DNA from: Terriglobia bacterium
GTDB lineage: Bacteria; Acidobacteriota; Terriglobia; UBA7540
DNA: 33,056 nucleotides
Reading direction: 5' to 3'
Assembly (NCBI GenBank): GCA_020072655.1
Contig: JAIQGH010000032.1
Span: 1-33,056 of the forward strand
The stretch's first letter is position 1, and the number at the start of each line of letters is the position of its first letter. The notes beneath the pieces are model-generated. The model ran no database searches. It was given only the letters and a program-made list of their open reading frames with translations, and had not been told where the DNA came from. The translations under genes were made by a program, and so were the position numbers. Shown in pieces: positions 24,895-30,530 of this stretch.

Positions 24895-25134
24895 CTAGAT
24901 CAGGCTGTCTTCTTTGCGGTGGGCACGCCAGCAATAGAGCTGCTCGACAGCAACTGAGAGCACGCAGATTCCGCCGGCAATCGAAACGCTGCTTTCGACC
25001 AACTCCTCGACAATATCCTGATTCTCCCGCAGAAGCGCATGGATTTGGGCGGCCAGCACAATGCCGTGCCCCAGAACCCACAGCCCGATGAAGGCGGCCA
25101 AGACCAGGGCGATAAGGCGCAGGGCGGTCTTCAT
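24895..25134 (-). CDS. Small two-helix membrane protein, hypothetical
   Basis: 79 residues. A first hydrophobic helix (residues 5-30, LRLIALVLAAFIGLWVLGHG) is followed by a short polar loop (LLRENQDIVEELVES) and a second helix (VSIAGGICVLSVAVEQLYCW), then a basic tail. It lies 161 bases downstream of the 158-residue gene and on the same strand. It could be the last member of the 26.8-24.9 kb group or an independent gene. The ribosome site is weak. Function unknown. Confidence 0.5.
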   Translation of the reverse strand: MKTALRLIALVLAAFIGLWVLGHGIVLAAQIHALLRENQDIVEELVESSVSIAGGICVLSVAVEQLYCWRAHRKEDSLI

Positions 25135-25295: not shown

Positions 25296-25772
25296 CTAAA
25301 GATTGAGGAGGTAGTCCGAGGCGGTCAAGTTTCCGAACCGAATCGTGCTGACCCGCTCGCCCACGACGTTGGCGAAGTATTGCAGAATGGCTGTCAGCCG
25401 GAGAATTGCTGGCTTCTCCTGCCGCCGCAGCCAGTGGCAGGCAACGAGGTAAAAAGAAATCGCATTGAAGTACAGGATAAGCAGACGCTCGTCGCGCGAG
25501 TAACGCTGATTGACGTTCGCCGCGTTCTTGAGCAGGTAGGTCAGGGCCAGGTAATCGCATTTGAGGGTCATCCGCACCCGCGGGTAGTCCACCGGCGCTT
25601 CGTACTCCTCAAGCGTCATGCGGACGACGGGGAACTCAAGCCGGTTGGCGTGAACGATCGCCAGGAAGTACTCCCGGTCAAACCGCCGGCGCAAGACTCT
25701 CTGGCAGGCAACCTGAAAATAAAAGAAGAATAGGCCAGTCGAGATGACCAGCACTAAACAGGCCCCGAACAT
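25296..25772 (-). CDS. Single-pass membrane protein of unknown function, partner of the 7-TM gene
   Basis: 158 residues. One N-terminal membrane helix (MFGACLVLVISTGLFFFYFQ) is followed by a cytoplasmic domain of about 130 residues. The domain has a basic juxtamembrane part (RVLRRRFDREYFLAIVHANR), two strands around EFPVVRMTLEEYE and PRVRMTLKCDYLALTYLLKN, and a helical C-terminus. I chose ATG 25770-25772, because GAGGGGA lies upstream and the longer frame to 26018 is a shadow of the neighbour. Its start lies only 14 bases after the stop of the 7-TM gene, so the two are surely co-transcribed. No named family recognised. Confidence 0.7.
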   Translation of the reverse strand: MFGACLVLVISTGLFFFYFQVACQRVLRRRFDREYFLAIVHANRLEFPVVRMTLEEYEAPVDYPRVRMTLKCDYLALTYLLKNAANVNQRYSRDERLLILYFNAISFYLVACHWLRRQEKPAILRLTAILQYFANVVGERVSTIRFGNLTASDYLLNL

Positions 25773-25786
25773 TACAACATCCCCTC

Positions 25787-26530
25787 TCAGACATCCCGGG
25801 TTGCCACCGCAACCAGTTCCTGGGCCGGTTCCTTCCCGGCCAGGATGGCGCTTGGCTGCGGCGCCCGGACGAGCGCATAAAACCAGGTCAATAACATCCC
25901 CAGCGTGCAAAGCGGGCTCACGTAACCATAGAGCGAGCTGGCAAAACCTTGACCCGTCGTCAAGCGGGCGAGGGCGAGGTTCGCTGCAGGGCCGGCAAAT
26001 TGGATTCCTAAGCCGCACACGAGCAGCGCCAGTTCGTCATCCGTGCTCTTGATCTGCTGCAGCAGGATATAGAGCAGCGTGTTCAAAACCAGGCAGGTGA
26101 AGTAGAGGTTTTGCTGGAATTCGACAATGAAGACCGTGCGGATCTGATCATAATTGCGGCCGAGCGCAAGAAGCGAAATCGCCAAGGTGAGGATGAGGAC
26201 AAAAACCAGCACCAGCCGAATGGAGTGCCACATCTTCTGCTCGTACTTGCAGGCCCGGCGGAAAAAGGCACAGACAAGCAGGAACGCCCCGAGGGTCAGC
26301 AGCACGTCCGTCAGCCAATAGAAGTACGCGTACTCCCGGGAGGAATAACCGTAGCGGTAAAGGATGTAGGGTCGGCTGACTCCGTCAAAGGCGAGTAGTA
26401 AGCTGAGATATAGGATAAGACAAACCAAACCCCCGAAGCGGCGGCGGACAGTCAGGTAGGCCAGCAGCCCCGCCTCGAGTAGATAAATACCGTACTGTAG
26501 CGCTACGCTAAGGTACCGCAACGTGAGCAA
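25787..26530 (-). CDS. Seven-transmembrane protein of unknown function
   Basis: 247 residues with seven clear hydrophobic helices (about 4-26, 31-50, 70-92, 104-124, 138-158, 165-187, 197-222), short loops and a polar C-tail. Conspicuous motifs are DGVSRPYILYRYGYSSREYAY after helix 2, a basic loop (RRACKYEQKMWHS) after helix 3, and GLGIQFAGPAANLAL in helix 6. The topology is receptor-like, but nothing links it to rhodopsins or to a named receptor family. The start is a TTG (26530 or 26521); no ATG is available and the first lies inside a perfect inverted repeat. The small repeat-protein gene lies 70 bases upstream and a one-TM gene 14 bases downstream, all on the minus strand. Confidence 0.7.
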   Translation of the reverse strand: MLTLRYLSVALQYGIYLLEAGLLAYLTVRRRFGGLVCLILYLSLLLAFDGVSRPYILYRYGYSSREYAYFYWLTDVLLTLGAFLLVCAFFRRACKYEQKMWHSIRLVLVFVLILTLAISLLALGRNYDQIRTVFIVEFQQNLYFTCLVLNTLLYILLQQIKSTDDELALLVCGLGIQFAGPAANLALARLTTGQGFASSLYGYVSPLCTLGMLLTWFYALVRAPQPSAILAGKEPAQELVAVATRDV

Positions 26531-26577
26531 CCTGGTTCAGCTGCCCAGCACGCCAGCTCTCTTCCGGGTTGCTCACG
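26522..26577. promoter_or_regulatory. 11-bp perfect inverted repeat over the start of the 7-TM gene
   Basis: CGTGAGCAACC (26522-26532) and GGTTGCTCACG (26567-26577) are exact inverted copies around a 34-base loop. On the mRNA, the stem would contain the TTG start at 26528-26530. It lies between the repeat-peptide stop and the 7-TM gene, so it may be an attenuator or a translation block. Confidence 0.6.
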
Positions 26578-26600
26578 CAAGCCGTAGAAAACCAGCGGGC

Positions 26601-26813
26601 TTAGTGACCGCCTCCGGGAAGCGGTGGTGGTGGCGAACCGCCGATCCCCAGCACGTGCGTTGGCAGGGGTGGTGGCGGCGAACCACCGATCCCGGTCACA
26701 TGCGTAGGCAGCGGTGGCGGCGGACTTCCACCAATTGCAAAAGCCTTCCGCAAACTTGCGCTGGCTAGTACGATCAGAACCGCCAGCAAGAACGTAACAA
26801 TAAGGTTCTTCAT
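26601..26813 (-). CDS. Tiny secreted protein made of three 15-residue proline-rich repeats
   Basis: 70 residues. A signal peptide (MKNLIVTFLLAVLIVLASAS, with LRKAFA at residues 21-26) should be cut after Ala26. The mature 44-residue chain consists only of three tandem copies: IGGSPPPPLPTHVTG, IGGSPPPPLPTHVLG and IGGSPPPPLPGGGH. GGAGGAG before the ATG gives a firm start, and a promoter and a palindromic leader lie upstream. Polyproline and Gly-Gly-Ser units suggest an extended, exposed peptide, either a wall or matrix linker or a signal released as repeats. It leads a group with the 7-TM and one-TM genes. No homologous family is known to me. Confidence 0.8.
   Translation of the reverse strand: MKNLIVTFLLAVLIVLASASLRKAFAIGGSPPPPLPTHVTGIGGSPPPPLPTHVLGIGGSPPPPLPGGGH
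26604..26735. repeat. Three 45-bp in-gene tandem repeats
   Basis: The copies lie at 26691-26735, 26646-26690 and 26604-26645 (the last shortened by one codon). Synonymous differences between copies (for example CCACC versus CCGCC at Pro codons) show that the protein repeat is kept while the DNA drifts. Confidence 0.75.
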
Positions 26814-26836
26814 CGCTCTCCTCCAGTTGTGGGTGA

Positions 26837-26856
26837 ATAGGATCAGAACATCCTAT
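26837..26856. promoter_or_regulatory. 7-6-7 palindrome in the leader of the repeat-peptide gene
   Basis: ATAGGAT, spacer CAGAAC, ATCCTAT: a perfect inverted repeat placed between the -10 box and the ribosome site. It is suited to bind a dimeric repressor or to form an mRNA hairpin. Confidence 0.55.
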
Positions 26857-26865
26857 ATGGAGGCG

Positions 26866-26894
26866 AGCGTAGAGAACTATTGGTTACAAGTCAA
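26866..26894 (-). promoter_or_regulatory. Predicted promoter of the repeat-peptide/7-TM operon
   Basis: Minus strand: TTGACT (26889-26894), 17-base spacer, TACGCT (26866-26871). It lies about 50 bases upstream of the start at 26813. The rest of 26814-27132 has no gene. Confidence 0.5.
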
Positions 26895-27132
26895 TAAGAA
26901 TCTACCAAACTCCCACGTGGTACATTGTGCCAGACAAGAACCCAATGTCAAGCCCAAACCCTTAGTACGAAGGTACTCAGACATATTGTCCGGACGAATG
27001 GCTAAGCGTCGTGCAGCCAGCGGGGGGAAGCTCATCAAAACCCGTGGCGGGTCAATTGGCGCGGGAGAGGGGCAATTGGACCTTGGGCAGCCCGCGCCCT
27101 TGCCGCTGGAGTGACTGGTAGGGGCAGCCCTT

Positions 27133-29489: not shown

Positions 29490-30530
29490 TCAGCGGATGC
29501 GAATCAGGGGATGAGTCTTCTCCATCACCTCGCCGACTTCACGTGCAGGCACGCCGCGCTCGGCGAGGGATTTCACTAGGTTTGCTGATGCCGCTGCTTC
29601 CACGGAGAACAATAGCCCCCCGGAAGTCTGCGGGTCGAACAGCAAGTTCTTGATCTCCTCGGGAATCCCCTCCGCGAACTCGACGCAACCGGCGACGAAT
29701 TCCATGTTGCGCTTGAGCCCGCCGGGCAAGTGGCCCTGGCGCGAGTATTCGACGGCTCCGGGCAGAAGTCCGATGCGTGTGTGATCGAGCACCAGACTTA
29801 CTTTGCCGGCAACCGCCATCTCGCGTGCGTGACCCAGCAGGCCGAAGCCGGTGATGTCTGTCGCGGCATGAACCGGAAACCCCAGCGCCACTTCCGCTCC
29901 CGCGCGATTCAGTGTGACCATCGACTCGGTTGCGGCCTTCACGGCCTCCTCGGTCGCTGCGCCGATCTTCAGCGCTGTGGAGATGATGCCGGTTCCGATG
30001 CGCTTGGTCAGCACCAAGCGGTCGCCCGCCCGCGCGCCGGCGTTGGCCCACACGCGCTGCGGATTGACGACGCCCGTCACCGCGTAGCCAAACTTCATTT
30101 CATCGTCGCCGATCGAATGGCCGCCGATCACCGCGCAACCTGCTTCCTGCATCTTGGCGTGGCCGCCTTGCAGGATCTTTTCGAGGATGTCGAGCCGATC
30201 GGCGTTGTTCGGGAAGCCCACGATGGAGAGCGCCGAAATCGGTCTGCCGCCCATCGCATACACGTCGCTCAGCGAATTCGCTGCGGCGATCTGGCCGAAG
30301 GTGTAAGGGTCGTCGACGATGGGCGTGAAGAAATCCACCGTTTGCACGAGGGCCAGCTCATCGCTCAGACGATACACTCCCGCGTCGTCGGCAGTGTCGA
30401 AGCCGATCAGCACATTAGGGTCGGATTGTTTCGGCAGCTTGCTGAGCACCGAGTCCAAAATACTTGGACTCAACTTCGCCGCTCAACCCGCCGCCTTCAC
30501 CATCGCGGTCAGCCGCGTGCGCTCATCCAT
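29490..30530 (-). CDS. selD: Selenide, water dikinase, itself a selenoprotein (Sec at residue 16)
   Basis: Makes selenophosphate from selenide and ATP, the selenium donor for Sec-tRNA and selenouridine. The 346 residues start at ATG 30528-30530 ([15 protein letters not shown]), pass an in-frame TGA at 30483-30485, and continue [17 protein letters not shown]. SelD proteins carry Cys or Sec at exactly this place with the catalytic Lys three residues later (here Lys19), so the TGA is read as Sec16. A SECIS-type hairpin follows. The rest is typical: [60 protein letters not shown] and [15 protein letters not shown]. Annotation that starts after the TGA (TTG at 30473) would drop the active site. 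A -10 TATAAT lies ten bases before the ATG and no ribosome site is seen, so the message may be nearly leaderless. A GNAT gene follows. Confidence 0.95.
30451..30471 (-). promoter_or_regulatory. Bacterial SECIS hairpin in selD
   Basis: In the mRNA, GAGUCCAA pairs perfectly with UUGGACUC around the loop GUAUU, extended by two U-G pairs at the base. The stem begins 11 bases after the UGA, so the loop is 19 bases from it and its first base is G, as bacterial SECIS elements require for SelB binding. Confidence 0.85.

Follow-up and report, generated by a model that had tools for sequence, protein, structure and literature searches.

The window analyzed here is a 33,056-nucleotide stretch of DNA from a Terriglobia bacterium (Acidobacteriota; contig JAIQGH010000032.1, positions 1 to 33,056). 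Its minus strand carries a three-gene cassette in the order exported repeat-peptide gene, seven-transmembrane (7-TM) protein gene, and gene for a protein with one transmembrane helix (1-TM), accompanied by promoter-like blocks and RNA hairpins. An earlier note on this DNA, made from the sequence, had pointed to the same run. The features, in order of transcription, are as follows.

Layout of the locus

26924 to 26951, minus strand: promoter-like TTGACA-16-CACAAT; in almost every locus of the family it lies at about −138 relative to the peptide ATG
26866 to 26894, minus strand: second promoter-like block, TTGACT-17-TACGCT, conserved (TAGGCT in relatives), overlapping the 5′ arm of the leader hairpin
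26814 to 26870, minus strand: leader RNA hairpin ACGCTCGCCTCC...GGAGGAGAGCG, which pairs with the Shine-Dalgarno sequence of the peptide gene and contains a 7-6-7 palindrome
26601 to 26813, minus strand: peptide precursor gene, 70 amino acids (aa), ATG at 26813, stop codon ending at 26601; export leader MKNLIVTFLLAVLIVLASASLRKAFA plus three repeats
26691 to 26735, minus strand: repeat 1, IGGSPPPPLPTHVTG, 15 residues, following A26
26646 to 26690, minus strand: repeat 2, IGGSPPPPLPTHVLG, 15 residues
26604 to 26645, minus strand: repeat 3, IGGSPPPPLPGGGH, 14 residues, with a degenerate tail
26521 to 26578, minus strand: RNA hairpin GCGTGAGCAACCCGG / CCAGGTTGCTCACGT, covering the start codon of the 7-TM gene
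25787 to 26530, minus strand: 7-TM membrane protein gene, 247 aa, TTG start, predicted N-out/C-in, single copy in the genome
25296 to 25772, minus strand: 1-TM protein gene, 158 aa, N-terminal helix plus a helical domain of about 125 residues, predicted cytosolic

GGAGGA lies immediately 5′ of the peptide-gene ATG, and the 1-TM open reading frame (ORF) begins 14 nucleotides (nt) past the 7-TM stop codon. The exact 7-TM start is uncertain, because the window reads TTG-CTC-ACG where relatives read TTG-CTC-ATG. All elements that the earlier note described are present, with small corrections: both membrane-protein ORFs, 14 bases apart on the minus strand; a promoter-like −35/−10 (TTGACT at 26894), which turns out to be one of two conserved blocks; the palindrome ATAGGAT-GTTCTG-ATCCTAT at 26856-26837, around which a longer hairpin, also conserved, extends the stem; and a perfect 11-bp inverted repeat, CGTGAGCAACC/GGTTGCTCACG, spanning the 7-TM start. 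Its 70-residue precursor with repeats was also borne out, but not its "exactly three 15-residue repeats": the units are 15, 15, and 14 residues, the tail of the third being degenerate.

Conservation of the gene trio

Our conservation search covered 200 relatives. In the window's own family (f1), the 7-TM gene is found in 34 of 38 genomes with one match each, and the peptide gene lies 5′ of it in all 30 loci that have enough upstream contig (a few are cut by a contig end). The 1-TM gene directly follows the 7-TM gene in every locus read. The trio recurs in other Terriglobia families. One of them, f6, has the 7-TM gene in 66 of 89 genomes and the peptide in 25 of the 30 loci read; of the rest, two end at a contig edge, two could not be parsed, and one has no peptide. 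In f6, the 7-TM stop lies in a 4-bp overlap with the 1-TM gene, whose product profile comparison relates to the f1 partner. The trio is also present in families f3, f11, f12, and f14. In f10, the 7-TM gene is preceded by short exported peptides that contain Pro but no repeats, and in f5 (locus L101 of genome G050, about 857-1418) many copies of a 15-residue unit, HGPVRPPGGDGNIVA, partly masked as N, stand ahead of a distant 7-TM homologue. Genes flanking the trio vary between groups, while the trio itself stays intact.

The earlier note had proposed that the run is an undescribed secreted-repeat-peptide/7-TM system, perhaps one of peptide signaling, and had named beforehand three results that would count against that reading. 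None of them occurred: the three genes are neighbors in relatives, the peptide gene has homologues (with a conserved leader and species-specific repeats), and the 7-TM protein falls in no known family. The proposal is supported.

There is one irregularity: at L049 (G020:C242), the 7-TM frame is broken by one TGA while the neighboring genes look intact, indicating either a pseudogene or an assembly error.

RNA hairpins and promoter-like blocks

The RNA between the peptide and 7-TM genes folds better than shuffled sequences (mean z −1.5). In 20 f1 loci it contains a helix of 10 bp, the 3′ arm of which lies against or over the start codon of the 7-TM gene; 86.5% of its cells are paired, versus 75.1% in shuffles and 36-41% when the helix is slid. 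Nine of its 10 pairs show double (compensatory) changes, with 30 double-change cells compared to 9.1 in shuffles (0 of 500 shuffles). The leader hairpin that pairs with the peptide Shine-Dalgarno sequence behaves similarly among 24 f1 relatives, with 15 double-change cells versus 3.4 (0 of 500 shuffles). Family f6 has a helix at the equivalent place before the 7-TM gene and a Shine-Dalgarno hairpin, both with weaker covariation. Counted from the peptide stop, the 5′ arm of the start-codon hairpin is about 14-22 nt downstream in f1 and about 20-50 nt downstream in f6. Neither hairpin has a match in Rfam; the two would represent new RNA elements whatever the function of the cassette. We consider the arrangement to be beyond chance because it recurs in dozens of genomes and because the compensatory changes of both hairpins exceed those of shuffles.

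Since the second promoter-like block runs into the 5′ arm of the leader hairpin, a transcript carrying the full hairpin must start upstream, perhaps from the −138 promoter; that both promoters are in use is our guess.

Loci of f6 such as L120-L143 also have, about 80-150 nt 5′ of the peptide ATG, a conserved, partly self-complementary stretch, GTCCCA...GGCGAAAGCC..CGAAA...TGGGAC...GTGTATCG..., for which Rfam gave no match. It sits upstream of the peptide promoter, with a tRNA gene nearby on the opposite strand.

Evolution of the repeat units

Leaders are similar across species, and the repeated unit is species-specific. Behind an export-type leader stand between 1 and about 8 copies of a Gly/Pro unit of 11-12 residues; the earlier note had proposed checking whether repeat number varies between strains, and across these loci it does vary. 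Examples of the unit are IGGSPPPPLP (window), GIGGTPPPLPPN, IGPSPAPIPPR, NGGAPLPPTPWK, NGGAPLPPNPWK, NGGAPAPPVPWK, NGSSPAPITPYR, and HGGAPIPPIPF. The dodecapeptide NGGAPLPPTPWK occurs three times in L121 and once in L130, which are two species; a single copy is therefore a plausible working unit.

We compared repeat codons in 14 f6 genes with two or three copies, which gave 36 within-gene pairs. Amino acid identity between copies of one gene is 1.000 (36 of 36 pairs), while four-fold third-base identity is 0.387, figures to be read with the caveat that repeats were anchored by a loose motif, which also favors similar units. Between species, four-fold identity is 0.393 for the same copy index and 0.355 for different indices, and amino acid identity is 0.752: from one species to the next, the amino acids of the unit change in all copies together. 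Pooling all repeat-bearing loci gave a proportion of synonymous differences (pS) of 0.52 and of nonsynonymous differences (pN) of 0.035, although pN is biased downward because the core was chosen as an exact amino acid repeat.

Repeat slippage or gene conversion was considered as the main cause of the identical copies and rejected, since homogenization of the DNA would align third bases within a gene, yet four-fold sites are as divergent within genes as between species. The simplest reading of these codons is that each copy seems to be separately selected to stay one species-specific peptide, as expected if every copy is recognized by one partner. Whatever the function turns out to be, copies that change their amino acids jointly with codons still different offer an unusual example of selection for identity, and one that can be measured.

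Co-variation of the unit with the 7-TM protein

Unit distances were compared with 7-TM distances by partial Mantel tests that controlled for GyrB (ORFs picked by BLAST) and for the 1-TM partner. The two co-vary in f6 (23 species; r 0.33, P 0.002) and in f1 (27 species; r 0.34, P 0.002), with the proviso that such tests may be anticonservative for species related by descent. The corresponding test of the unit against the 1-TM partner, given GyrB and the 7-TM protein, was not significant. In f6, but not in f1, the signal is located on the predicted outer half of the 7-TM protein.

Protein families and predicted structures

None of the three proteins has a noteworthy match in Pfam, NCBIfam, or PADLOC, and sequence and profile searches found no PDB relative of the 7-TM or 1-TM protein. 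Of 31 7-TM members, none matched 7TMR-DISM, MHYT, or other bacterial 7-TM sensor families (Pfam, E 0.1); matches to DUF7802, DUF2231, and other Pfam families were weak, confined to single members, and set aside. AgrC/ComD-type receptors have a kinase domain on or next to the multi-TM protein; Pfam and NCBIfam revealed none in the 7-TM or the 1-TM protein.

The AlphaFold2 model of the 7-TM protein, built on 8 sequences, has seven helices (predicted local distance difference test score [pLDDT] 79.5; predicted template modeling score 0.75), and a positive-inside reading of its charges suggests an N-out/C-in topology. Its leading PDB structural matches are nearly all G protein-coupled receptors (GPCRs), with VIA-align Z up to 14.1 and a best Foldseek E of 0.12 (none below 0.001), values that helical bundles may attain through their arrangement alone. 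The model thus points weakly to GPCRs as the closest fold. The 1-TM model is poor (pLDDT 62.5), and Foldseek returned nothing usable with so weak a model.

A candidate peptide-signaling cassette

A relation of ligand to receptor would fit the concerted change of the copies, their co-variation with the 7-TM protein beyond species divergence, and the GPCR-like fold predicted for that protein. We hold with moderate confidence that the cassette encodes an undescribed system of a species-specific peptide ligand, a 7-TM receptor, and a cytosolic partner. The precursor would be exported by Sec and its leader removed (between A26 and I27 in the window; at MA|NGG in the g23 group, which leaves exactly n × 12 residues), whereupon proteases would release identical units. 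A released unit would bind the 7-TM protein, with its GPCR-like predicted fold, on the outer face; the 7-TM protein would then relay its state to the 1-TM protein, whose helical domain is anchored to the membrane. The hairpins would hold down translation of both receptor and ligand, that over the 7-TM start codon probably keeping receptor output under ligand output or gating it. The peptide might act between cells, on leaving the periplasm, or within one cell envelope.

More tentatively, we propose that this is a phylum-specific peptide-pheromone system, the first described for Acidobacteriota, with a kinase-less GPCR-like receptor, a dedicated membrane-tethered transducer, and hairpins that set ligand and receptor output. 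The novelty lies in the parts and the architecture, not in a proven function. Acidobacteriota are among the commonest soil bacteria. If the proposal is true, the short linear signal of each species could be read from its genome and synthesized, making a private peptide language of soil bacteria directly testable, and bacteria would have a new route to peptide sensing, through a kinase-less GPCR-like receptor.

Several observations weigh against a ligand-receptor cassette. In other acidobacterial classes (L103, L105, L107, L108, L110, L112, and L114), the 7-TM gene is followed by a 1-TM gene of 135-163 aa, but no exported peptide can be seen ahead of it. The pair must consequently have some activity without the peptide as well, or take a different ligand; it therefore seems older than the peptide, and its ancestral role may not have involved one. 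The outer-half co-variation of f6 did not replicate in f1. To the biases given above for the repeat comparisons and the Mantel tests are added the weak GPCR-like ranking by Foldseek, the poor 1-TM model, and the lack of any enzymatic or signaling family matching the 1-TM domain. The cassette has no dedicated exporter or outer-membrane exit. Lastly, the ligand, receptor, and transducer functions are ones that we infer, that of the transducer from gene layout only.

Alternative explanations

The exported Pro-rich chain might instead stay whole as a non-signaling envelope component that the 7-TM/1-TM pair anchors, folds, or processes. Its Pro/Gly repeats do resemble spacer or scaffold segments, and Arg/Lys directly follows the hydrophobic stretch of the leader, which is unusual for a cleaved signal peptide. 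We nevertheless regard this as unlikely: copies are identical within a gene while their sequence differs between species, and several species have a single copy, so an array is not needed.

A cis-acting export sensor, in which the Pro-rich nascent chain stalls the ribosome during export and opens the hairpin at the 7-TM start, strikes us as quite improbable, though the locus is arranged like one. An export leader, C-terminal poly-Pro, and a hairpin over the next start make up the layout of arrest systems; SecM, MifM, and VemP are secretion-monitoring exported leader peptides, each encoded 5′ of a gene with its start sequestered by an RNA hairpin. The cassette resembles them in that its exported peptide, with poly-Pro motifs near the C terminus, precedes a gene whose start lies in a covarying hairpin. 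It differs in having identical tandem units, from 1 to about 8 of them, that change as a set from species to species, which a single C-terminal arrest site does not need, and in its downstream gene, which is not a Sec or YidC component. At the distances from the peptide stop given above, moreover, the 5′ arm of the hairpin is probably beyond the reach of a stalled ribosome, and the units co-vary with the 7-TM protein.

It is very unlikely that the repeats are a Pro-rich bacteriocin from which the 7-TM protein (with the 1-TM protein) protects the producer: a mature part diversifying under a conserved leader and co-varying with a membrane protein would fit toxin and immunity too, but the distribution is not patchy, nearly every genome of a family having one copy, the RNA and promoter control are fixed, the units have few charges, and no bacteriocin, exporter, or PADLOC match was found.

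Comparison with known systems

For the ligand-receptor interpretation, the closest counterparts are pheromone systems of other organisms. In the Bacillota RRNPPA family, Phr propeptides may hold several pheromone copies (two identical ones in Phr105, with up to 8 cited), the phr gene adjoins that of the Rap receptor, and pheromone copies are more conserved than the remaining propeptide (PMC11343458). The cassette likewise has an export-type leader, several identical short copies, and a gene beside that of a putative receptor. Rap, however, is cytosolic and needs peptide import, whereas the cassette has 7-TM and 1-TM proteins, belongs to Acidobacteriota, and is unrelated in sequence; no cytosolic TPR-type receptor of the RRNPPA kind adjoins the peptide gene, whose 7-TM and 1-TM neighbors have no Pfam or NCBIfam match.

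Fungal precursors of the alpha-factor type are Kex2-processed repeat proteins with a signal peptide and repeated, near-identical, diverse cores (PMC7329392). Like alpha-factor and its receptor Ste2, the cassette combines a repeat precursor with a 7-TM protein, and Foldseek lists Ste2 as one of several weak hits to the 7-TM model from the window (rank 30, E 0.51). Unlike them, it has neither Kex2-type KR sites nor a G protein, and the proteins are separate bacterial families with no detectable sequence relation. As for class C and other GPCRs, the likeness is one of structure, a predicted seven-helix N-out/C-in bundle; identity is about 10%, the loops are short, the cassette encodes no G proteins, and the shared arrangement does not show relation. 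By analogy, the working principle may be like that of the multi-copy pheromone systems of Bacillota and fungi. In the open-license literature that we searched, we found no description of the cassette nor of any peptide signaling system in Acidobacteriota, and its parts, arrangement, and phylum match no described system found there.

Other features

Cobalamin riboswitches lie near two family loci (L039, 798-1002; L065, 990-1223). In the window, a 79-aa ORF 3′ of the cassette (24895-25134, minus strand) encodes hydrophobic helices and has no Pfam match; it has relatives at other family loci. Farther upstream, selD (29490-30520, minus strand), with AIRS domains, reads through only if an in-frame TGA (30485-30483) is decoded; its product, selenophosphate synthetase, is probably itself a selenoprotein, judging from this codon.
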